Assembly: GCF_026625845.1 (NCBI RefSeq)
Contig: NZ_CP113066.1
Coordinates: 1,302,001 to 1,366,000 of the forward strand
Direction of reading: 5' to 3'
Length of the DNA: 64,000 nt
Source: Agrococcus sp. SL85
GTDB lineage: Bacteria > Actinomycetota > Actinomycetes > Actinomycetales > Microbacteriaceae
Part shown: one piece after another, positions 1-32,867 of the stretch
How the letters are laid out: each line of letters opens with the position of its first letter
Numbering within the stretch: position 1 is the stretch's first letter
Notes under the pieces: generated by a model
Seen by the model: only the letters and a program-made list of their open reading frames with translations
Told to the model about the DNA's origin: nothing
Databases searched by the model: none
Translations under genes and position numbers: made by a program

Positions 1-864
1 GCCGCGGTCCTGCCGCCCTCGTCCTCGCGCTCGAGCGCGAGCACGGGCACGATCCCGTCGATGTAGTCGAGCGCGTCCTGCGCGGCGCCGGCCGAGACGA
101 GGCCGTGCACGACGTGGAGGCGCGTGCCGAACTCGTGCGACTGCTCGCGCAGCGCCCCCGCGATCCGCCGCGTCTGCTCGTGCTCGGCCGCGAGGTCGTC
201 GGCGCGACGCAGGCGGCGCTCGACGGCCGCAGCGATCGCGGAGCCTCGCGAGCGTGCCCACCACGAGCGCGCCGAGCGCCCACGGCAGCAGCTGCGCCAG
301 CGCGGCGTCGCGGTCGTCCGAGAGGCTCGACTCGAGCACGCCGACGGCGACCATGCCGACCACGCGGCCGTCGTCGCCCTGCACGGGCAGCTTCGCGCGC
401 AGCGAAGCGCCGGAGGCGCCGGTCTCGGTGCCGACGAAGGGCTCGCCCGCGAGCACCGAGGCGTTCGTCGTCGACACCTGCACGCCGCGCTCGCGCTCGT
501 CGGGGTGCGTGATCCGCACGCCCTCGTCGTCGGTGATGACGACGTAGTACACGCCGGAGGTGCCCTCGGCGAGGTCGGCGAGGGGCTGCAGCGCCTCGGT
601 CGCCGGGGCGAGGGCGGCCGCGTCGGCGAGCGCGCCCGGCCGCCCCGCGTCGACGACGTCGGCGAGCGCGGCGCGCACCTCGCGCAGGCCCGCGAGGCTC
701 GAGGCGACCTGCAGCACCCGCTCGGCCGCGGCCTCCCGGATCGCCCGCTCCTGCAGCGAGGCGGCGAGCAGCGCGGTGCCGCCGACGGCCAGGAGCACCA
801 CGAGCGTCGGGAGCACGAGCAGCGCGCGGCGGACGGTCCGCGCCGCGCGGTCGGCTGAGGGCAT
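1..864 (-). pseudogene. CitA/DcuS-type sensor histidine kinase, partial (runs off left edge) and frame-disrupted
   Basis: Reading leftward from ATG 864, the protein has a first membrane segment at about residues 12-34, a periplasmic PAS-like sensor region (GVYYVVITDDEG, then THPDERERG and GTETG motifs typical of dicarboxylate/citrate sensors), a second membrane segment, and then LREQSHEFGTRLHVVHGL, the H-box of the DcuS/CitA family with the phospho-accepting His in SHEF. The kinase ATPase domain lies beyond the window. The frame breaks near 241-250: the second membrane segment is in one frame and VERRLRRADDLAAEH in the next. One extra base (GAGGCTC where GAGCTC would restore the frame) explains it. 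It is divergent from tctCBA, the expected arrangement for a kinase sensing a carboxylate imported by that transporter; a response regulator should lie further left. Whether the break is real or a read error cannot be told here. Confidence 0.82.
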
Positions 865-2666: not shown

Positions 2667-4202
2667 ATGGATGCGCTGCAGCTGCTGGGCGAGGGCTTCG
2701 CCTCGGCCCTGACGTGGCAGAACATGCTCTTCGTCGTCATCGGCTGCCTGCTCGGCACCGCGGTCGGCGTCATGCCGGGCCTCGGCTCGTCGATGGCGGT
2801 GGCGCTGCTGCTGCCCGTCACGTTCTCGCTCGACCCGACGGCGGCGTTCATCATGTTCGCGGGCGTCTACTTCGGCGGGCTCTTCGGCGACTCGACGATG
2901 GGCATCCTCATGAACACGCCGGGGCAGGCCTCGGCGATCGCCTCGACCTTCGAGGGCCATCGCATGGCGCTCGGCGGCCGCGCCGCGCAGGCGCTCGCGA
3001 CCGCCGCGATCGGCGCCTTCGTCGGCGGCTTCGTCGCCTCGATCGCGGTCGTCTTCCTCGCGCCGCTGCTCGCCGACCTCTCGAGCAGCTTCGGGCCCGC
3101 GGAGTTCTTCGCGCTCGCGGTCTTCGCGTTCGCCGCCACCTCCTCGGTCGTCACCGACGACGCGCGGCGCGGCCTCGCCTCGCTGTGCCTCGGCCTCGGC
3201 ATCGCGGTCATCGGGATCGACGGCGTCTCGGGCGCCCCGCGGTTCACGATGGGCTCGCCGCAGCTCTTCGACGGCATCTCGCTCGTGACCGTGACCGTCG
3301 CGATCCTCGCGCTCGGCGAGGTCATCCACGTCGCGAGCCTCGAGCGGCACCTCGGCACGAAGCCCATGCTGCGCCCCTCCGGCCGTCCGTGGCTCTCGCG
3401 GAAGGAGTTCCGCGAGGCCGCGCCCGCCTGGGCGCGCGGCACGGCGGTCGGCCTGCCCTTCGGCATCGTGCCCGCCGGCGGCTCCGAGATCCCCACGTTC
3501 CTCGCCTTCGGCCTCGAGAAGCGGCTCGACCGGCGTCGCACGGATCCGCAGTTCGGCAAGGGCGCGATCCGGGGCCTCGCGGCGCCGGAGGCCGCGGGCA
3601 ACGCCACGACCGGCATGGCGATGGGCTCGCTGCTCGCGCTCGGCCTGCCCATCTCTGCGACGGCGGCCATCATGCTCGCCGCCTTCCGCCAGTACGGCCT
3701 GCAGCCGGGGCCGCTGCTCTTCGAGCGCTCCCAGGAGCTCGTGTGGGCGCTCCTCGCGAGCTTCTTCATCGCGATGGTCGTGCTGCTGGTGCTCAACCTG
3801 CCCTTCGCGATGCTGTGGGCGAAGCTGCTGCTCATCCCGCGGCCCTACCTCTACGCGGGCATCACGGTCTTCTGCGCCCTGGGCGCCTACGCCTCCTCGG
3901 GCTCGACGTTCGACCTGCTGCTGCTGCTCGGCATCGGCGTGCTGGGCTTCGTCATGCGGGCGCTCGACTACCCGCTCGCGCCGCTCATCATCGGCATGGT
4001 GCTCGGGCCGCTCGCCGAGACGAGCCTCCGCGACGCGACGATGAGCGCGAACGGCGACTTCGGGGTGCTCGTGCAGGGGCCCATCCCCATCGTGCTCTAC
4101 GGCCTCCTGGTGGTCGTCCTGGTCGTCGCGGTGCGGCAGCGGATCGTCGCCCGCCGCGCCGCCGCGGCCCCCGCCCCGCGCGAGGAGGTCGCGGCGCGCT
4201 GA
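2667..4202 (+). CDS. tctA: Tripartite tricarboxylate transporter large permease TctA
   Basis: A 511-residue integral membrane protein with about 12 hydrophobic segments and full family length. It shows the TctA signatures GVMPGLGSSMAVALLLPVTF near the N-terminus, FAGVYFGGLFGDSTMGILMN, and GIVPAGGSEIPTFLAFGLEK in the middle. With TctC and TctB it forms the secondary, binding-protein-dependent TTT carboxylate importer. Gene order here is C-B-A. A 12-bp-stem hairpin follows the stop. Confidence 0.95.
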   Translation: MDALQLLGEGFASALTWQNMLFVVIGCLLGTAVGVMPGLGSSMAVALLLPVTFSLDPTAAFIMFAGVYFGGLFGDSTMGILMNTPGQASAIASTFEGHRMALGGRAAQALATAAIGAFVGGFVASIAVVFLAPLLADLSSSFGPAEFFALAVFAFAATSSVVTDDARRGLASLCLGLGIAVIGIDGVSGAPRFTMGSPQLFDGISLVTVTVAILALGEVIHVASLERHLGTKPMLRPSGRPWLSRKEFREAAPAWARGTAVGLPFGIVPAGGSEIPTFLAFGLEKRLDRRRTDPQFGKGAIRGLAAPEAAGNATTGMAMGSLLALGLPISATAAIMLAAFRQYGLQPGPLLFERSQELVWALLASFFIAMVVLLVLNLPFAMLWAKLLLIPRPYLYAGITVFCALGAYASSGSTFDLLLLLGIGVLGFVMRALDYPLAPLIIGMVLGPLAETSLRDATMSANGDFGVLVQGPIPIVLYGLLVVVLVVAVRQRIVARRAAAAPAPREEVAAR

Positions 4203-4211
4203 GCCGGCCGT

Positions 4212-4240
4212 CGCCCGCGCCGCGATGGGCGGCGCGGGCG
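4212..4240 (+). terminator. Hairpin terminator after tctA
   Basis: Perfect 12-bp stem CGCCCGCGCCGC with loop GATGG and its complement, starting 10 nt after the tctA stop. There is no poly-T tail, as with other putative terminators in this window. Confidence 0.6.
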
Positions 4241-4263
4241 TCGCCGTCCATAGACGTCGCGTC

Positions 4264-4269
4264 TAGCAT
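4264..4269 (+). promoter_or_regulatory. -10 box of menA (leaderless type)
   Basis: TAGCAT ends 8 nt before ATG 4278, so transcription is expected to begin at or next to the start codon. It follows the tctA hairpin, indicating that menA has its own promoter. Confidence 0.5.
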
Positions 4270-4277
4270 CGGAGGCG

Positions 4278-5249
4278 ATGGCAGCGCAGAGGACCAACCA
4301 GCGATCCGGCAACCCCGCACGGCGGGCGCAGGTGGCGGGCACCGCCCCGGCCCCAGCGACCTGGCGCGACTGGATCGCGGCCTCCCGGCCGCGCACCCTC
4401 TCGATGGCGATCGCGCCCGTCGCGCTCGGCACCGCGGCGGCGTTCAACGCCGAGGGCTACCACCTGGGCATCGCGCTCGCCTGCCTCGCGCTCGCGCTCT
4501 GCATGCAGATCGGCGTCAACTACGCCAACGACTACGCCGACGGCGTGCGCGGCACCGACGCGCTCCGGGTCGGCCCCGGCCGCCTCGTCGGCGCAGGCAG
4601 GGCCTCGGCGAGGGCGGTGCGGAACGTCGCGATCGGCTTCCTCGCGGCGGGCGCCGTCGCCGGCGTCGTCGTCGTGCTGCTGTCGCAGCGCTGGTGGCTG
4701 CTGCTCGTCGGCGCGGTGTGCATCGTGGCGGCGTGGACGTACACGGGCGGCAAGCGCCCCTACGGCTACCTCGCCCTCGGCGAGCTCGTGTCGTTCCTCT
4801 TCTTCGGCCCGGTCGCCGTGGTCGGCACGACCTACGCGCTCATCGGGCGCGCCACCGACGACGCGATCACCCTCGGCATCGCGATGGGCTGCTTCTCGGC
4901 GGCGCTCATGCTCACGAACAACCTGCGCGACATCGACACGGATCGCGCCGCGGGCAAGCGCACCGTACCGACGCTCATCGGCCGCCGCGCCTCGAAGGCG
5001 CTGTACGCGGTGCTGATGCTCGTGCCCTTCGGCATCCTCTGGGTCTACTCGTACGCGCTCGCGTACGGCGCGGTCGTGCTCATCGTGCTGCTCGTCGCGG
5101 CGCCCGCGATCGTCATCGTGGCCCTCTCGCGCTCCGCGCGCGACCTCATCATCGCGCTCGGCCTCACGGGCCTCACGGCGCTGCTCTACGGTCTCGGCCT
5201 CGCGGTCGCCATCTGGGGCGGTCCGGCCGGCTTCGTGCCGGCGCCGTAG
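4278..5249 (+). CDS. menA: 1,4-dihydroxy-2-naphthoate polyprenyltransferase MenA
   Basis: A 323-residue UbiA-superfamily prenyltransferase that attaches the polyprenyl chain to DHNA in menaquinone synthesis at the membrane. The first Asp-rich motif NYANDYADGVRGTD lies at residues 81-94 and the second, NNLRDIDTDRAAGKRT, near residue 214. About eight membrane helices are evident. The N-terminus before WRDWIAASRPRTL is a Gln/Arg/Ala-rich extension of about 28 residues. menD, menF, menG and a polyprenyl diphosphate synthase lie within the next 10 kb, supporting the assignment over other UbiA members. Confidence 0.93.
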   Translation: MAAQRTNQRSGNPARRAQVAGTAPAPATWRDWIAASRPRTLSMAIAPVALGTAAAFNAEGYHLGIALACLALALCMQIGVNYANDYADGVRGTDALRVGPGRLVGAGRASARAVRNVAIGFLAAGAVAGVVVVLLSQRWWLLLVGAVCIVAAWTYTGGKRPYGYLALGELVSFLFFGPVAVVGTTYALIGRATDDAITLGIAMGCFSAALMLTNNLRDIDTDRAAGKRTVPTLIGRRASKALYAVLMLVPFGILWVYSYALAYGAVVLIVLLVAAPAIVIVALSRSARDLIIALGLTGLTALLYGLGLAVAIWGGPAGFVPAP

Positions 5250-6187: not shown

Positions 6188-7881
6188 GGCGCAGCCGCCC
6201 GAGGCCCCTGCCACCGGGCAGCCGCTGCAGGCCGCCGCCTACGCCGACCGCCTCGTCGCAGCGCTCGCCGCCGCGGGCGTCGCCGACATCGTCGTCTGCC
6301 CCGGCTCGCGCTCCCAGGCGATCGCCCTCGCCGCGGCCCGTGCCGCGCGCTCCGGCGGTGCCGCCCTCCACGTCCGCATCGACGAGCGCAGCGCTGCCTT
6401 CCTCGCGCTCGGCCTCGCGCGCGAGACCGGCGCACCGGCCGCGGTCGTCGTCACGAGCGGCACGGCCGTCGCCAACCTCGCGCCCGCGTTCCTCGAGGCG
6501 CACCACGCCGACGTGCCGCTGCTCGCGATCACGGCCGACCGGCCCGCCGAGCTGCAGGGCATCCGCGCCAACCAGACCACGCGGCAGCCGGGCGCGCTCG
6601 GCGAGGGCGCCCGCGTCGTGCTCGACATCGCCGCCGAGGCGCTCGTCGACCCCGAGGCCGACGCGGTCGCCGCGGTGCGCGCGGCGCTCGGGTGGCGCGA
6701 GGGCGGAGCGCACACCGAGGCGGGCCCCGTGCAGCCTGAACCTCGCGCTCCGCGAGCCGCTCTCCGGCGGACCCGTCGCCGCGGGGCCCGCGGTCGCGCG
6801 CGTGGAGCGGCCGCCGCTGCCGCAGTCGGCGCTGCGGGCCGCCGCGCGCACCGTCGTCATCGCGGGCGCCGACGCCGGCGCGGCCGCGGTCGATCTCGCC
6901 GAGGCGCTCGGCGCTCCGCTCGTCGCCGAGCCCACCTCGTGCGCGCGCTTCGGGCCGCACCTCGTGCAGCACGGCAGGGAGGTCGTGGCGCGGCTCGCGG
7001 GCGAGGTGCGCCGCGCGGTGGTCGTCGGCCACCCGACGCTCTCGCGGTCGGTCACGGCGCTCCTCCGCGATCCCGCCGTCGAGGTCGTGGTGCTCGGTCG
7101 AGAGGGCCAGGACAACGTGCGCGGCACGGGCACGACGACCGTGCTCACGGGCCGCATCCGGGTCGAGGAGGCCGAGGAGGTCGACCGCGCCTGGATCGAC
7201 CGCTGGGTCTCGGCGGGGCGCGAGCTCGCGGCCGCCGCAGACGCCGAGGCCGCGCCCGACTCCGGGCTCGCCCGCGCGGCGTACGCGCGCGCCGAGCTCG
7301 CGGAGGGCCGCACCCCGCTCTCGCGGCGCGACCTCGTCACCGCGGTCTGGGACCGCACGTGGCCCCACGACCGCCTGGTCGTCGCGGCCTCCCGCCTCAT
7401 CCGCGAGCTCGACGACCACGCGGGACCCAAGGCGGTCACGGCGCGCGCCAACCGCGGCCTCGCGGGCATCGACGGCACCGTGTCGACCGCCGCGGGCGTC
7501 GCGATCGCGCACGAGCGCGAGCAGCCCGGCGGCCTGACGCGCCTCCTGATCGGCGACCTCGCGCTGCTCCACGACGCGGGCGGGCTGCTCGTGCCGCCGG
7601 GGGAGGAGCGGCCCCGGCTGCAGATCGTCGTCGGCAACGACCGGGGCGGCTCGCTCTTCGAGCTGCTGGAGGTGGCGGGCACCGCCGACCCCGACGACTT
7701 CCGGCGCGTGCAGCGCACCCCGCACGACGTCGACCTCGAGCACCTCGCGGCCGCCTACGGCTGGCCGTTCGAGCGCGTCACCGACCGCGCGGGCCTCCGC
7801 CGGGCCCTCTCGCAGTCGCGGCCTGGCATCGTGGAGGCGGTCCTGGAAGGGGGCACGGATGCCGAGCAGCAGCACGCCTGA
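6180..7881 (+). pseudogene. menD: 2-succinyl-5-enolpyruvyl-6-hydroxy-3-cyclohexene-1-carboxylate synthase MenD, frame interrupted at 6735
   Basis: MenD is the ThDP-dependent enzyme joining isochorismate and 2-oxoglutarate in menaquinone synthesis. The first 185 codons (GTG 6180) contain [14 protein letters not shown], the catalytic-Glu segment [15 protein letters not shown] and [17 protein letters not shown]. The remainder ([12 protein letters not shown] to the C-terminus) lies one frame over. GPVQ ends one frame exactly where LNLAL begins the next: CAGCCTGAAC at 6732-6741 should read CAGCTGAAC, one extra C. Deleting it gives an uninterrupted 566-residue protein of normal length. Actinobacteria generally depend on menaquinone as their only quinone, so a true knockout would probably be lethal; a read error is the likelier explanation. 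Confidence 0.9.
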
Positions 7882-15403: not shown

Positions 15404-16296
15404 CCCGCCCGTCGCGGCGGATCGCGTCGCCCCGGCTGGTCGAGGAGCGCGCGCCGCAGGCGCACGCGTCGTCCCCGCTGGTCGAGGAGCGCGCGCCGCA
15501 GGCGCACGCGTCACGAGGCCCCCGCGCACCGTGGAGCCTGAGCGGCGTCCTCCTCGTCGCGCTCGCGGCGGTCGTCGCGGGCGCGATGAACGCCGCGGCG
15601 GGCGGCGGCACGCTCATCACGTTCCCCGCGATGCTCGCGGCCGGCATGACGCCGCTCGCGGCGAACATCACCTCCTCCGTCGGCCTCCTCGCGGGCAGCG
15701 TCGGAGGCGCGCTCGCGTACCGCGACGAGCTGCGCGAGCGCCGTCGTCGGTTCCTCGTGAACGCGCCGTGGGCGGCGGTCGGCGGCGTGCTCGGCGCGGT
15801 GCTGCTGCTCGTGACGCCGTCCGACTCGTTCACCGCGATCGTGCCGTGGCTCGTGCTCGCCGCCGCGGGCCTGTTCGCGGTGCAGCCGCTCGTGACCCGC
15901 GTCGTCCAGCGGCGCGCCGAGGGCGAGCCGGACCCTGCGGCCGCGGGCGGCTGGGGCGTTCGGATCGCCTTCCTGGCGATCGGCGCCTACGGGGCCTACT
16001 TCGGCGCAGGGATCGGCATCATGATGCTCGCGCTGCTGGGCGTCGCGATCCACGACAGCCTGCAGCACCACAACGCGATCAAGAACCTCGTCTCGTTCGT
16101 CGTGAACGCCGCGGGCGTGCTCGTGCTGGCGTTCTCGCCGCTCGTCGAGTGGGGGCTCGTGGCCATCATGCTCGTCGGCTCGCTCGTGGGCGGCGTCGTG
16201 GGCGGCCGGCTCGCCCGGCGCGTGCCTGCATGGGTGCTGCGCACGATCGTCGTGGCCGTGGCGCTCGTGCTCGCGCTCTCGATGCTGCTCGGCTGA
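15400..16296 (+). CDS. TauE/SafE-family sulfite/sulfonate exporter-like permease with repeat-derived N-terminus
   Basis: A 298-residue membrane protein of about eight helices with the TauE hallmarks AGAMNAAAGGGTLITFPAML, ITSSVGLLAGSVGGALAYR and the second-half repeat YFGAGIGIMMLALLGV. The only in-frame start that preserves helix 1 is GTG 15400, overlapping the fprA stop (GTGA). The resulting N-terminus of about 45 residues is mostly the translation of two dispersed-repeat units (LVEERAPQAHAS twice, 14-codon period). The next in-frame ATG, 15586, lies inside helix 1. The transported anion is unknown. Confidence 0.8.
   Translation: MTRPSRRIASPRLVEERAPQAHASSPLVEERAPQAHASRGPRAPWSLSGVLLVALAAVVAGAMNAAAGGGTLITFPAMLAAGMTPLAANITSSVGLLAGSVGGALAYRDELRERRRRFLVNAPWAAVGGVLGAVLLLVTPSDSFTAIVPWLVLAAAGLFAVQPLVTRVVQRRAEGEPDPAAAGGWGVRIAFLAIGAYGAYFGAGIGIMMLALLGVAIHDSLQHHNAIKNLVSFVVNAAGVLVLAFSPLVEWGLVAIMLVGSLVGGVVGGRLARRVPAWVLRTIVVAVALVLALSMLLG
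15436..15519. repeat. Dispersed palindromic repeat, copy B: two tandem direct units inside a reading frame
   Basis: Two identical 35-nt units (15436-15470 and 15478-15512) begin CTGGTCGAGGAG and end GCGCACGCGTC; the second continues into ACGAGGCCCC. The 42-nt period equals 14 codons, so the frame of the TauE-like gene stays open. The unit ends match the copies near 10.9 and 45.9 kb. Confidence 0.75.
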
Positions 16297-22996: not shown

Positions 22997-23160
22997 GCTC
23001 CAAGGCTATGGGTGCTCGACAGCCAAGGTCACGAATTCGGAACGATCCATGTCTGGACCCTCGTTCGACTTGCACGGATGGGGGACCGGCCCCCACGATG
23101 TGCCAGGCCCCGCCGACGATGGCCGTCGGCAGACGGGGCCGTGCAACGAGAGAAGGCACC
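22997..23160. promoter_or_regulatory. Divergent control region between GH13 and the sugar importer
   Basis: A 164-nt gap. TAGCCT (23008-23003, minus) drives the GH13 gene. On the malE side there is an inverted repeat TGGGGG-ACCGG-CCCCCA (23089-23105) and a palindrome CGAATTCG (23032-23039), either of which could be a LacI-type operator. No regulator gene is adjacent. AGAAGG just before ATG 23161 is the malE ribosome binding site. Confidence 0.45.
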
Positions 23161-24414
23161 ATGCAGCACAGGAGCTTCATGACGGCCGCGGGGGTGGGCG
23201 CGCTCGCGCTCACGCTCACCGCGTGCGCCGGCGGCGGGACCCCCGCGCCGGCGGAGACCGAGACGCAGGCCGCAGGCGGCGGCGCGCTCACCATCTGGAT
23301 GGACCAGAACCGCGCCGACGCCCTCGAGGGCGTCATCGCCACCTTCGAGGAGGAGACCGGCACGACCGTCGAGGTCGTCGTCAAGGACTTCGGCACCATC
23401 CGGGACGACCTCACCACCCAGGCGCCCTCGGGTGAGGGCCCCGACATCGTCGTCGGCGCGCACGACTGGATCGGCAAGCTCGTGCAGAACGGCGTCGTCG
23501 CGCCCGTCGAGCTCGGCGACGGCGCGGCCGACTTCGAGGACGTCTCGGTGCAGGCCATGACGTACGAGGGCAGCGTCTACGGCGTGCCCGTCTCGATCGA
23601 GAACATCGCGCTCGTGCGCAACACCGCGCTCGCGCCCGAGGCCCCGGCCACGTGGGACGACCTCGTCGCCACCGGGCAGGCCGCGGTCGAGTCCGGCGAC
23701 GCCGAGTACCCGATGCTCGTCGGCATCGACCCGAACAACGCCGACCCCTACCACCTGTACCCGATGCAGGCCTCCTTCGGCGGCCCCGTCTTCGGCCTCA
23801 ACGAGGACGGCTCGTACGACGCGGCCGACCTGCAGCTCGGCAACGAGGGCAACGTCGAGTTCGCCTCGGCGCTCGCCGAGTGGGGCTCGCAGGGCATCGT
23901 GAACCTCAACATCTCGCAGGACATCGCCAAGGAGCAGTTCGCGAACGGCGCCTCGCCGTACACGATCACGGGCCCCTGGAACCTGCAGACGTTCCAGGAG
24001 GCGGGCATCGAGTACGCGATCGACCCGATCCCCTCGGCCGGCGGCCAGCCCGCCACGCCGTTCGTGGGCGTGCAGGGCTTCATGCTCTCGGCCTACTCCG
24101 AGAACCCGATCGTCGCGACGCAGTTCCTCACGGAGTATGTGGCGAGCGAGGAGGCCCAGACGGCCATCTTCGAGTCGGGCCAGCGCGCGCCCGCGCTCTC
24201 GGCGGCCTTCGAGGCGGCGCAGTCGAACGCCGACGTCGCCGGCTTCGGCGCGGTCGGCGCCGAGGGCGTCCCGATGCCGAACATCCCCGAGATGGACGCG
24301 CTGTGGGCCGACTGGGGCACCACCGAGGCGCAGATCATCGGCGGCCAGGCCTCCGACCCGGGTGCTGCCTGGACCCAGATGGCCGACAAGATCCAGTCCA
24401 CGCTCGAGGGCTGA
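23161..24414 (+). CDS. malE: Maltose-type ABC transporter substrate-binding lipoprotein
   Basis: A 417-residue lipoprotein: a signal peptide ends in LTLTAC with the lipidated Cys at residue 22, followed by a Gly/Ala/Glu linker. The mature part has LTIWMDQNRADALEGVIATF, SGEGPDIVVGAHDWIGKLVQ, FANGASPYTITGPWNLQ and the C-terminal PNIPEMDALW, all typical of MalE-like proteins. With the following permeases it should import maltose or maltodextrin. The ATPase gene (MsmX/MalK-like) is not here and may be shared. A double hairpin follows the stop. Confidence 0.9.
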   Translation: MQHRSFMTAAGVGALALTLTACAGGGTPAPAETETQAAGGGALTIWMDQNRADALEGVIATFEEETGTTVEVVVKDFGTIRDDLTTQAPSGEGPDIVVGAHDWIGKLVQNGVVAPVELGDGAADFEDVSVQAMTYEGSVYGVPVSIENIALVRNTALAPEAPATWDDLVATGQAAVESGDAEYPMLVGIDPNNADPYHLYPMQASFGGPVFGLNEDGSYDAADLQLGNEGNVEFASALAEWGSQGIVNLNISQDIAKEQFANGASPYTITGPWNLQTFQEAGIEYAIDPIPSAGGQPATPFVGVQGFMLSAYSENPIVATQFLTEYVASEEAQTAIFESGQRAPALSAAFEAAQSNADVAGFGAVGAEGVPMPNIPEMDALWADWGTTEAQIIGGQASDPGAAWTQMADKIQSTLEG

Positions 24415-24525: not shown

Positions 24526-26158
24526 GTGACGACGACGTCCGCCCCCGAACGACCCGACGCGCCCCGCGCAGGCCGCCGCGGCGCCGCGCCGCGCCGCGGC
24601 ATCCACCACCAGCCGCCCAGCATGCGCGTGCTCGCGGTCAAGATCGCATTCCTCGCGATCGTCGACGCGATCGCGGTCTTCGCGATGTCGGCCCTCTTCT
24701 TCCGCGAGGACTGGCTCGTGCTCGGCATCGTCGCCGCCGTCACGCTGCTCGTCAACGTCGTCTACCTGAACCCGGGCTTCCTGCCCGCGAAGTACCTCGT
24801 GCCGGGCCTCATCTTCCTGGCGATGTTCCAGCTGTTCGTCATCGTCTACTCGCTCTACATCGCGTTCACGAACTACGGCGACGGCCACAACTCCACGAAG
24901 GAGGACGCGGTCGCCGCGATCGTGCTGCAGAACACGCAGCGCGTCGAGGGCTCGCCCGCCTACCGCGTGCAGGTGGTGGAGGGCCCCGGCGGCCTCGGCC
25001 TGCTCGCCACGAGCCCGGAGGGCGAGGCGCTGCTCGGCACCGCCGAGGAGCCGCTCGAGCCCGTCGACCCGGGCACCGTGACGCTCGAGGGCGGCCGCGC
25101 GACGGCCGTCGAGGGCTGGACGAGCCTGGGCCTCCAGGACATCCTGCAGCGCCAGCAGGAGATCGCGAGCCTCCAGGTGCCGCTCGGCGAGGAGCTCTCC
25201 GAGGGCTTCCTCCGCACGACCGACGCCACGAACGGCTTCGAGTTCCGCTCGATCTTCGTCTACGACGAGGAGGCGGGCACCATGACCGACTCCGAGACCG
25301 GCACCGTCTACCGCGACCTCGGCGCCGGGCAGTTCGAGTCGGAGGACGGCCAGGTGCTCGGCACCGGCTGGCAGATCGTCGTCGGCTTCGAGAACTTCCT
25401 CTACCCGTTCCAGAACCAGCAGTTCGGCAGCGCGCTCGTCTCGGTGACCATCTGGACCTTCGCGTTCGCGGTCCTGTCGGTCGGCATCTCGTTCTTCCTC
25501 GGCCTGTTCCTCGCGATCACGCTGAACGACCCGCGGATGCGCTCGCGCAAGGTCTACCGGATCCTCGCGATCCTGCCCTACGCGTTCCCGTCGTTCCTCT
25601 CGGCGCTCGTGTGGCTCGGCCTGTTCAACACCGAGTTCGGCTTCATCAACGAGGTGCTGTTCGGCTCGGCGAACATCCCGTGGCTCACGGATCCCGTGCT
25701 CGCGAAGATCTCGGTGCTCATCGTGAACGTCTGGCTGGGCTTCCCCTACATGTTCCTGGTCTGCATGGGCGCCCTGCAGTCGATCCCCGAGGAGCTGACC
25801 GAGGCGGCGACGGTCGACGGCGCGAGCGCCTTCTCGATCTTCCGCCTCATCAAGTTCCCGCTGCTGCTCGTCTCGACGGCGCCGCTGCTGATCTCGTCGT
25901 TCGCGTTCAACTTCAACAACTTCAACATCATCTACATGCTCACCCGAGGCGGGCCGCGCATGGCCGCGCATGCAGGGGGTCGACGAGAACGTCGGCCACA
26001 CCGACCTCCTCATCACGCTCGTCTACAAGACGGCGTTCGAGGCGGGCACCCGCGACTACGGCCTCGCGGCCGCGCTCGCGATCATCATCTTCGTCATCGT
26101 GGCCGTGGTCTCGGCGGTGTCCTTCCGCCAGACGCGTGCGCTGGAGGACCTCAACTGA
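24526..26158 (+). pseudogene. malF: MalF-type sugar ABC permease, frame interrupted by a 10-bp tandem duplication
   Basis: MalF-like permease: several N-terminal helices, a large extracytoplasmic domain (about residues 130-285) and the permease core with the EAA loop ELTEAATVDGASAFSIFRLI. At 25953-25972 the decamer GCCGCGCATG occurs twice in tandem. Upstream the frame reads LTRGGPRM; the true end MQGVDENVGHTDLLITLVYK and AVSFRQTRALEDLN lies one frame over. Removing one decamer gives a continuous 540-residue protein ending at TGA 26156-26158, overlapping malG. As written, the original frame misses that stop and continues into malG, encoding an 857-residue MalF-MalG chain lacking MalF's last helix. 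A real slippage mutation, a mixed population or an assembly error are all possible. Confidence 0.88.
25953..25972. repeat. 10-bp tandem duplication in malF
   Basis: GCCGCGCATG twice, head to tail and perfect. Ten bases shift the frame by +1; deletion of either copy restores MalF to its normal end. Confidence 0.92.
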
Positions 26159-27099
26159 TGAGCATCGACATCGACCCCCAGAACGTCGACCCGCAGGCGA
26201 TGCGCGAGGGCGCGCCGCCGCTGCGCACCATCCGGCAGCCGCGCATGGGCTTCGGCCGCTGGATGCGCGAGCTCGGCTGGCGCCACGTCATCGGCGTGGC
26301 CGTCGTGATCTTCGCGACCTTCCCGATCATCTACGTCATCAGCGCCTCGCTGAACCCGAACGGCACGCTCACGGGCTCGAACCAGCTGTTCCAGTCGGTC
26401 TCGGGCCAGAACTACGTCGACCTCTTCTCGGACCCGCGGCGGCCCTTCGCCAACTGGTTCGCGAACACGATGATCGTCGGCATCGTCACCTCGGTCGGCA
26501 CGGTCTTCCTCGGCGCGCTCGCCGCGTACGCGTTCAGCCGGATGCGCTTCGCGGGCCGCCGCGGCGGGCTGCTGAGCCTCATCCTCGTGCAGATGTTCCC
26601 GCAGCTGCTCGCGGTCGTGGCGATCTACCTGCTCATGCGCGGCATCAGCGAGATCTTCCCCGCGATCGGCCTCGACAGCCTCATCGGCCTCATCATGGTC
26701 TACCTCGGCGGCGCGCTCGGCGTGAACACCTACCTCATGTACGGCTTCTTCAACACGGTGCCGTCGTCGATCGACGAGGCCGCGAAGCTCGACGGCGCGG
26801 GCCACGCGCGCATCTTCTTCACGATCATCCTGCGGCTCGTCGCGCCCATCCTCGCGGTCGTCGGCCTGCTCTCGTTCATCGGCACGACGAGCGAGTTCGT
26901 CATCGCGTCGACCCTCATGACGAGCCCTGAGAACCTCACGCTCGCGGTGGGGCTGTTCCGCTACGTGTCGGAGGAGACGAACTCCAACTACCCGATCTTC
27001 GCGGCGGGCGCGGTGCTCTCGGCCATCCCGGTCGTGGCCCTCTTCCTCTACCTGCAGAAGTACATCGTGGGCGGGCTGACGGCGGGCGCCGTCAAGTAG
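26158..27099 (+). CDS. malG: MalG-type sugar ABC transporter permease
   Basis: A 313-residue permease with six helices. The EAA loop PSSIDEAAKLDGAGHARIFF contacts the ATPase, and the C-terminus LYLQKYIVGGLTAGAVK closely resembles the MalG end that docks into the transporter. ATG 26158 overlaps the malF stop (TGATG). In the sequence as given it is also read through from the upstream malF frame. Confidence 0.93.
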   Translation: MSIDIDPQNVDPQAMREGAPPLRTIRQPRMGFGRWMRELGWRHVIGVAVVIFATFPIIYVISASLNPNGTLTGSNQLFQSVSGQNYVDLFSDPRRPFANWFANTMIVGIVTSVGTVFLGALAAYAFSRMRFAGRRGGLLSLILVQMFPQLLAVVAIYLLMRGISEIFPAIGLDSLIGLIMVYLGGALGVNTYLMYGFFNTVPSSIDEAAKLDGAGHARIFFTIILRLVAPILAVVGLLSFIGTTSEFVIASTLMTSPENLTLAVGLFRYVSEETNSNYPIFAAGAVLSAIPVVALFLYLQKYIVGGLTAGAVK

Positions 27100-29830: not shown

Positions 29831-31801
29831 GTGCTCCAGCCCCATCACGACGGCTCCGCCCTCCACGTCTCCACCCTCGAGCCGCGGCTCGGCGACACCG
29901 TGCGGGTGCGCCTGCGCATCCCCGTGGGCGCCGACGCCCCCCTCGAGGTGCTCGTGCGGTCGAACCCGGACCGCGAGCCCTTCTTCAACAAGGCGGTGCA
30001 CCTGGGCACCGCCGGCGGGCACGACTGGTGGGAGGCCGAGATCCGGGTGGCGAACCCCGTGCACCGCTACCGGTGGCTCGTGCACCACGAGTCGGGGCTC
30101 ACGCAGTGGATCAACCAGGAGGGCGTGCACCGCATCGAGACGCGCGACGACGCCGACTTCGCGCTCGTCGCGCACGAGCCGCCGCCCGCCTGGGCGACCG
30201 ACGCCGTGCTCTACCAGGTGTTCCCGGACCGCTTCGCGCGCTCCGCGGAGGCGGATGCGCGATCCACGCCCGCGTGGGCGGTGGCGGCCGGATGGGACGA
30301 GCCGGTCGTGGGCTCGGGCCCCGGCGTCTCGGAGCAGTACTACGGCGGCGACCTCGCGGGCGCCGAGGCGCACCTCGACCACCTCGTCGACCTCGGCGCC
30401 ACGGTGCTCTACCTCACGCCCGTCTTCCCGGGCGAGTCGAACCACCGCTACAACGCCTCGACCTTCGACGAGGTCGACCCGCTGCTCGGCGGTGACGAGG
30501 CGCTCATCTCGCTCGTCGAGGCGGCCCACGCGAAGGGCCTGAAGGTGCTCGGCGATCTCACGAGCAACCACACGGGCGACACGCACGCGTGGTTCCTCGC
30601 GGCGCAGGCCTCGGAGGACGCCCCGGAGCGCGCCTTCTACTACTTCCACGAGGGCGGCACCTACGCGTCGTGGCTCGGGCACGCCTCGCTGCCGAAGCTC
30701 AACTGGAACAGCCAGGAGCTGCGCGACCGCTTCATCGAGGGCCCCGACTCGGTCGTGGGGCGCTGGCTGCGGCCGCCGTACTCGCTCGACGGCTGGCGCA
30801 TCGACGTCGCCAACATGACGGGCCGCTACGAGGACGACGACCTGAACGCCGAGGTGCGGCAGATCATCCGCCGCACGATGGTCGAGATCGACCCCGACAC
30901 GCTGCTGCTCGGCGAGTCGACGAACGACGCGACCGACGACTTCCAGGGCGACGCCTGGCACGGCGCGATGACCTACGCCAACTTCACGCGTCCGGTGTGG
31001 GGCTGGCTGTCGGTGCCGGGCTCGGCGGCCTTCGGCGGCCTCGGCATGGCGCGCTCGGTCATCCCCTCGTACACGGGTGTCGACGTGCACGCGCAGCACC
31101 AGCGCTTCGTGGCCGGCATCCCGTGGCGCACGCGCCTGCACAACATGAACGCGCTCGACACCCACGACACCCCGCGCTTCGCGACGAACGCGCTGCCGGG
31201 GGCCGTGCCGGTCGCGCTCGGCATGGCGGTCTCGCTGCCGGGCATCCCCGTGGTGTGGGCGGGCGACGAGCTGGGCCTCACGGGCGTCAACGGCGAGGAC
31301 TCGCGCACGCCGATGCCGTGGGCGTCGTTGGGCGAGCACGAGGCGACGATCGCCGTCCACCGCGAGCTGCTGGCGCTGCGGGCGGCGCAGCCGGCGCTCC
31401 GCGGCGGCGGCATGCGCTGGCTGCACGTGGGCGAGGAGGTGCTCGTGTGGGTGCGCGAGACCGCCGCGTCGTCGGTGCTCTGCGTCGCGGCGCGCGGCTT
31501 CTACGACGTGGTCGTCGAGGAGGGCGACGTCGTGCTCGAGGGCGCCGAGCCCGCGCCGCTGTGGGGCGATGGCGGCGCCGCGGTGTTCGGCGAGGGCGGC
31601 CTGCGGCTCACGGGATCGGGCCCGTCGTTCACGGCGTGGGCGCTGCCGGGCGTGGCGGTGCCGGTCGCCGACGAGCCGGAGGAGCTCGCGGAGCGCGAGC
31701 TGCTCGACCAGAACGCCGCGCAGGACGCCGCGCTCGCCCACGGCGAGCCGGCGGCGCCGACGGAGACGGCCGCCTGGAGCAAGGACACGCTGGCCGACTG
31801 A
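29831..31801 (+). CDS. GH13 neopullulanase / cyclomaltodextrinase-like amylase
   Basis: A 656-residue enzyme: an N-terminal beta-sandwich of about 120 residues (CBM34-like position), then the GH13 barrel with VLYQVFPDRFARS, GWRIDVANMTG (nucleophile Asp), LLLGESTNDA (acid/base Glu) and LDTHDTPRF. The Glu-Ser-Thr and Gln-rich active-site context resembles maltogenic amylases. There is no signal peptide, so it should act on imported dextrins. GTG 29831 is preceded by TAGCGT at 6 nt. The C-terminal 45 residues are an acidic extension. Confidence 0.88.
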   Translation: MLQPHHDGSALHVSTLEPRLGDTVRVRLRIPVGADAPLEVLVRSNPDREPFFNKAVHLGTAGGHDWWEAEIRVANPVHRYRWLVHHESGLTQWINQEGVHRIETRDDADFALVAHEPPPAWATDAVLYQVFPDRFARSAEADARSTPAWAVAAGWDEPVVGSGPGVSEQYYGGDLAGAEAHLDHLVDLGATVLYLTPVFPGESNHRYNASTFDEVDPLLGGDEALISLVEAAHAKGLKVLGDLTSNHTGDTHAWFLAAQASEDAPERAFYYFHEGGTYASWLGHASLPKLNWNSQELRDRFIEGPDSVVGRWLRPPYSLDGWRIDVANMTGRYEDDDLNAEVRQIIRRTMVEIDPDTLLLGESTNDATDDFQGDAWHGAMTYANFTRPVWGWLSVPGSAAFGGLGMARSVIPSYTGVDVHAQHQRFVAGIPWRTRLHNMNALDTHDTPRFATNALPGAVPVALGMAVSLPGIPVVWAGDELGLTGVNGEDSRTPMPWASLGEHEATIAVHRELLALRAAQPALRGGGMRWLHVGEEVLVWVRETAASSVLCVAARGFYDVVVEEGDVVLEGAEPAPLWGDGGAAVFGEGGLRLTGSGPSFTAWALPGVAVPVADEPEELAERELLDQNAAQDAALAHGEPAAPTETAAWSKDTLAD

Positions 31802-31867: not shown

Positions 31868-32867
31868 TCAGCGCGCCCCGACGATCCCGATCGGTTCCGT
31901 GCCGGCCCTGGGCTCTGCGTCCGGCTCCTCGAGCGGCGCGGGCTCGACCAGGTCGGCCTCCGGCTCGACCGTGCGCCGCCGCCCGAGCGGCACCGCGCCC
32001 GAGCCCAGGAGCACGCCGAGCACCACGACAGCCGCGCCCGCGACCTCGCCCGCCGTCAGCGTCTCGCCCAGCACGATCCACGCGGTCAGCAGCCCGACGA
32101 CGGGCACGAGCATCGAGAACGGCGCGACGCGCGAGGAGGGGTGGTTGCGCAGCAGCCAGGTCCAGATGCCGCTGCCCACGACCGTGCCGAACAGCATCGT
32201 GTAGCCGAGGCCCGCGAGGGCCCAGAGCCCGGTGGGCTCGCCGAGGCCGACGAACGAGGCGCCGATCGCCGCGGGGCCCTCGACGGCGAGCGAGACGCCG
32301 AGCATCGGCAGCACGGGCACGACCGACATCCAGAGCGTCAGGTGCAGGGGCTTCGAGGGGCGCGCGAGGCGGCTGGAGAGGTTGCCGAGCGCCCAGCCGA
32401 GCGCCGCGAGCAGGGTCAGCAGGAACGGCCCGAGCGCCGCGGTGCCCAGCCTGCTGCCCGCCGATCGCGGTGAGGCCCGCGACGGCGAGCACGATGCCGA
32501 TCACCTGGCCGCGGTCGAGGCGCTCGCGCAGCAGCGTCGCGCCGAGCAGCACCGTCATGGGCGCCGACGACTGCAGCACGAGCGAGGCGAGGCCCGTGGG
32601 CATGCCGGTGGCCATCGCCCAGTAGAGGAAGAGGAACTGCAGCGTGCCGAAGCCGAGCCCGTAGCCGAGGAGCCAGCGCAGCGGCACGTCCGGGCGGGGG
32701 ATGAGCAGCATCGTCGGGATCGCGAGGAGGGCGAAGCGCAGCGCCACGAGGAAGAAGGGTGGGAACTGCTCGAGCGAGAGGTGGATGGCCAGGAAGTTCA
32801 GCCCCCACAGCACCGCCACCAGGATCGCCGCGAGCCGCTCGGTCGTGGTCATCGCGCGCTGGATCAT
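31868..32867 (-). pseudogene. EamA/DMT-family exporter, frame interrupted near 32450
   Basis: Ten-helix drug/metabolite transporter in two frames. The first half starts MTTTERLAAILVAVLWGLN (ATG 32852; an earlier in-frame ATG is 32867) and runs to VAGLTAIGGQQ; the second half, LGTAALGPFLLTLLAALGW to the acidic C-terminus, is one frame over. CAGGCTGGGC on the minus strand would read through if it were CAGCTGGGC, one extra base. Corrected length is 332 residues, normal for the family. The divergent LysR gene is a typical regulator of such amino acid or metabolite exporters. Confidence 0.85.

Follow-up and report, generated by a model that had tools for sequence, protein, structure and literature searches.

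We examined a window of 64,000 nucleotides from Agrococcus sp. SL85 (contig NZ_CP113066.1, positions 1,302,001 to 1,366,000), in which a malE-malF-malG locus is found (Table 1). This locus resembles those of the maltose-type ABC importer permeases MalF and MalG in its Pfam domains and in the gene for a solute-binding protein that lies upstream. Indeed, Pfam assigns solute-binding domains to the product of the gene ahead of malF, and both TM_PBP2_N and BPD_transp_1 to the part of MalF that precedes the repeat described below, as is expected of a MalF-type permease. The likeness extends to the junction of the two permease genes, where the TGA of malF overlaps the ATG of malG at 26158-26160, giving the same TGATG as in 15 of 17 relatives. 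What is unlike a maltose-type MalF is the presence of ten extra bases near the end of the gene, which interrupt its frame.

Table 1. Coordinates of the features of the window discussed in the text (position 1 is its first letter)
Feature	Position	Strand	Basis and remarks
malE-type solute-binding protein gene, intact	23161..24414	+	ORF and Pfam; start codon is our choice within ORF 23008-24414
malF-type permease gene, frame broken at the repeat	24526..26158	+	Pfam TM_PBP2_N and BPD_transp_1
Continuous malF-malG frame, 857 codons	24526..27099	+	ORF
GCCGCGCATG, copy 1	25953..25962	+	Sequence, 20-mer search, TRF
GCCGCGCATG, copy 2	25963..25972	+	Pair faces a 10-base gap in relatives G023 and G016
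malF C-terminal segment, conserved, out of frame	25973..26158	+	Ends in a TGA overlapping malG
malG-type permease gene, intact, 313 aa	26158..27099	+	Pfam BPD_transp_1
AGCCT at a frameshift in gene 3-855	242..246	-	Codon HMM and word match
AGCCT against AGCT in G023, G016 and G017; breaks gene 6219-7845	6733..6737	+	Alignment
AGCCT against AGCT in G023 and G017; breaks EamA-family gene (31913-32867)	32448..32452	-	Alignment

The extra bases belong to a perfect duplication, two copies of GCCGCGCATG following each other head to tail at 25953-25972 of the forward strand. The 20-mer is unique in the window, and TRF reports a period of 10 with 100% matches over a span of 25952-25972. On the 3' side of the repeat, the normal MalF frame picks up again as MQGVDENVGHTDLLITLVYKTAFEAG...EDLN and ends with a TGA at 26156-26158, and by arithmetic a single copy of the decamer gives a MalF of 540 residues. 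The C-terminal segment, which runs in frame to the MalF stop in 17 of 17 full-length genus orthologues, does not do so as deposited, and the fused frame swaps this conserved C-terminus for some 60 residues of out-of-frame reading. No decay is seen in the MalF segment behind the repeat, nor otherwise in malE, malF or malG. The original prediction had described the repeat with its coordinates, worked out the frames and noted that MalF loses its C-terminus, and in all of these it was right (20-mer search, TRF, ORF 24526-27099 of 857 codons).

An exact 10-bp tandem repeat by itself is not rare in the GC-rich coding DNA of this genome. In the 646 frameshift-free genes (587 kb), one such repeat was observed, for a mean of 1.65 in codon-shuffled versions, and besides that of malF the window contains another exact one at 31022, where there is no frameshift. 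Elsewhere in the window, a 42-bp in-frame tandem repeat (15423-15512, 2.1 copies, 95% alike) lies at the start of a gene called by the codon HMM. What is beyond chance, judging from the alignments, is that the ten bases are missing at the malF site in every orthologue in which the site could be displayed. Twenty-three genus relatives were searched, which provided 17 full-length orthologues (67-83% identity) and, in 6 cases, distant paralogues only; in all 17 the ten bases are absent and the end of MalF is normal. A scan of named genomes then widened the comparison. Of its 449 loci the best 80 were used (10 of them Agrococcus, several repeated from the genus set), and in all 80 the frame reaches the MalF C-terminus and stops at the usual place. 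The site is displayed in 79 of them, all without the ten bases; the remaining one (L057) does not have the GGP word used for finding the site, yet it is in frame to the usual C-terminus. Thus, a duplicated tract at the site was found in 0 of 17 genus orthologues and in 0 of the 79 displayed loci among the best 80 of 449. The single decamer is present somewhere, on either strand, in the loci of 12 of the 17 relatives, and a search of plasmids with the malF site returned nothing closer than distant homologues, the best of them with 71.6% identity across the full query. On these alignments, the ten-base insertion is private to this assembly among all the genomes compared.

The same alignments bear on the continuous frame. 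Of the 15 relatives that have the TGATG overlap, 12 have a malG frame that stays open upstream beyond the site, and the same is true of 26 of 32 TGATG loci in the wider set, which shares Agrococcus genomes with the first. The continuous frame therefore carries no information of its own: an insertion of the same phase would join malF to malG in those relatives too, and the 857 codons are a by-product of high GC. The single malF-malG frame put forward in the original prediction is thus real, at 857 codons, and of little meaning. The prediction had also named homologues with a normally fused form as grounds for refuting it, and the comparison yielded no such case, none of the 17 genus orthologues being fused. 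A working MalF-MalG fusion protein, for which the continuous frame would speak, is extremely improbable in our view, given that the conserved MalF C-terminus would be replaced by out-of-frame residues, that most relatives with the TGATG overlap have an open malG frame beyond the site regardless, and that none of the 17 genus orthologues is fused, with all of the best 80 wider loci stopping at the usual place.

A second frameshift in the window, in the EamA-family gene, led to a survey of frameshifts across the assembly. For this, we used a home-made codon HMM, trained on the window and applied to the window and to 35 other 20-kb stretches (764 kb in total), in which it called 726 genes and 88 in-gene frameshifts affecting 80 genes. 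Before any junction check, 65 of these 88 lay at AGCCT, AGGCT or AGGCCT. All 88 calls were then checked for gene junctions, and five, one of them of the AGCT class, were found to resemble junctions between neighbouring genes. In particular, ftsW was rejected as a broken gene (L166:1608), since a normal gene end is followed there by the start of the next gene, and the calls at L106:5130, L112:426, L152:4464 and L157:13778 were rejected as resembling gene junctions misread by the HMM. Of the 83 frameshifts left, 64 belong to the AGCT class; the other 19, malF among them, may include further mistakes of the HMM. Five of the AGCT-class sites, that of holA included, are less secure, being under 15 codons away from the end of a gene. 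With 83 in 764 kb, the sample has roughly one in-gene frameshift every 9 kb. The same codon model, that of this genome, called 5 frameshifts in 360 kb of four relatives, counted before any junction check, and none of them was at AGCT-class words. The frameshifts of this assembly are many and cannot all be real.

What defines the AGCT class is that C, G or GC has been added within the word AGCT, and its 64 sites (in the window, where they include those at 242, 6733 and 32448, and in L102-L116 and L152-L171) amount to about 2% of coding AGCT, with 2859 intact. The inserted base follows the flanks: in the coding sense, GAG_CTG gained C in 18 of 18 cases and CAG_CTC gained G in 11 of 12, which are one event read on opposite strands. 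This pattern looks like a context-bound, motif-linked sequencing error. Relatives carry AGCT at 7 of the 9 AGCT-class sites with an alignment shown, L116:72 and L116:160 being not cleanly AGCT. Among the genes broken in this way are, by best NCBIfam family (the queries were gene pieces cut at 330 residues, and some scores fall below whole-protein cut-offs), murD (codon 77), murF (46 codons from its end), transketolase (in the middle of the gene), class II DAHP synthase (broken twice, close to its start), heme o synthase (codon 37) and radA (codon 32), with milder breaks in proC and holA (22 and 6 codons before the end, respectively). The murD and murF breaks are within 4 kb of each other (L166:2871-6817), and both genes are essential. 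A cell lacking the two is not credible, so we rejected the idea that the AGCT insertions are real in the cell.

The origin of these errors may be connected to DNA modification. Two C5-cytosine methyltransferase genes are found in the genome. The first (L184:5001-6461, minus strand) is itself broken at an AGCCT and is convergent with an adjacent ORF (L184:4232-5023, plus strand) that has no match in Pfam or NCBIfam, and the two may be a restriction-modification pair; the second (L185:5737-7467, 577 codons) has neighbours that look like prophage genes. The specificity of the C5-methyltransferase was sought in Pfam, NCBIfam, plasmids and the PDB, which gave the general family only, and no N6_N4_Mtase match was found in the genome itself. 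It is a fair guess that the AGCT errors come from methylated AGCT misread on a long-read platform. Modifications of native DNA are reported to be able to cause basecalling errors (PMC11649196), and another report describes an earlier Klebsiella assembly from long reads in which Dcm motifs held many errors, as opposed to that study's own genomes, and states that most long-read assemblies contain errors of tens to hundreds of bases (PMC8442456). Our AGCT class is similar to such motif-linked consensus errors, in that it accounts for 64 of the 83 frameshifts and that the context matches the inserted base, whereas the malF insertion is itself off-motif.

Indeed, the malF repeat was rejected as a member of the AGCT class, since none of the words AGCCT, AGGCT and AGGCCT occurs less than 40 bases away. 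Alignment to one or more of four relatives covered 88 kb of coding DNA and, with gaps in poor flanks dropped (for example at window position 6733), gave 10 clean out-of-frame gaps, of which nine are one-base AGCT-class insertions and the tenth is that of malF. Eight of the nine face AGCT in the relatives, the exception being the L116 site near 72. Breaks of other kinds are found outside this set: a gene matching aspartate kinase (L160:6201) has two extra bases compared with 6 of 6 relatives, and these are not at AGCT, which points to errors or mutations beyond the AGCT class in this assembly. One of the two 16S copies (L193, contig 3561-5084) is garbled beside an AGCT, in a stretch where the other own copy and 6 copies from 5 relatives agree, partial matches of G003 left out. 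Two further tandem duplications were rejected as gene breakers, one of 8 bp (L112:388) lying 38 bases from a called frameshift that resembles a gene junction, and one of 14 bp (L161:17515) lying at a gene edge. We also considered a seam left at malF by circularisation or by contig ends, since 5 of 22 Flye assemblies are reported to carry duplicated bases where their contigs end (PMC8442456). Both ends of the contig, however, fall between 5S and 23S. With dnaA at 895829 it has not been rotated to that gene, and a seam at malF finds no support.

The original prediction had offered three options for the repeat, namely an assembly error, a fixed mutation and a slippage switch; the first two are among the leading readings, and the third is left with no support. 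Such a switch would be a metastable one-copy or two-copy state turning the uptake of maltose or maltodextrin on and off in this strain. Head-to-tail copies can slip back to one, and by arithmetic the dropping of one copy would restore the malF frame; moreover, as in the simple-sequence contingency loci of phase variation, the tandem unit is not a multiple of three and lies inside a gene. Unlike those loci, malF has two copies only, no tract in the genus orthologues or in the displayed wider loci, and no sign of variation. Besides, the 764 kb contain no other perfect tandem duplication near a frameshift with a unit of at least ten that is not a multiple of three, and we regard a switch as very unlikely.

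The reading that we favour, to which we give about an even chance, is that the ten extra bases of malF are an error in the consensus of this assembly. In that case the cell would have a normal malF, ending on malG through the TGATG overlap, and the 857-codon MalF-MalG chain would be absent from it. This is supported by the contrast between the 83 frameshifts of the sample, mostly of the AGCT class, and the few of the relatives, by the aspartate kinase insertion off AGCT, by the garbled 16S copy and by the undecayed MalF segment. It is weakened by the position of the malF site away from AGCT, the only one of the ten clean gaps outside the class; a perfect 10-bp duplication is unusual as a consensus error and usual as a spontaneous mutation. 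That an insertion different in kind from the main class of errors is also an error is what we infer. That the sequenced clone did recently acquire a real 10-bp tandem duplication is a serious contender, falling somewhat short of an even chance. It would be an ordinary loss of function by slippage, leaving MalF non-functional, and neutral or favoured in laboratory culture. The exactness of the duplication in otherwise undecayed malE, malF and malG, its difference in kind from the AGCT class and the single copy in the relatives all agree with such an event. On the other hand, the assembly has many false frameshifts and at least one other that is off AGCT, so that one further frameshift needs no biology.

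As a finding, the malF duplication is thus of little weight; if real, it would say only that the sequenced clone lost a sugar importer. Of greater value for the users of this genome is its load of frameshifts, which lie mostly at AGCT and are so frequent that claims of pseudogenes, fusions or losses of function drawn from this assembly can be trusted only together with the reads.
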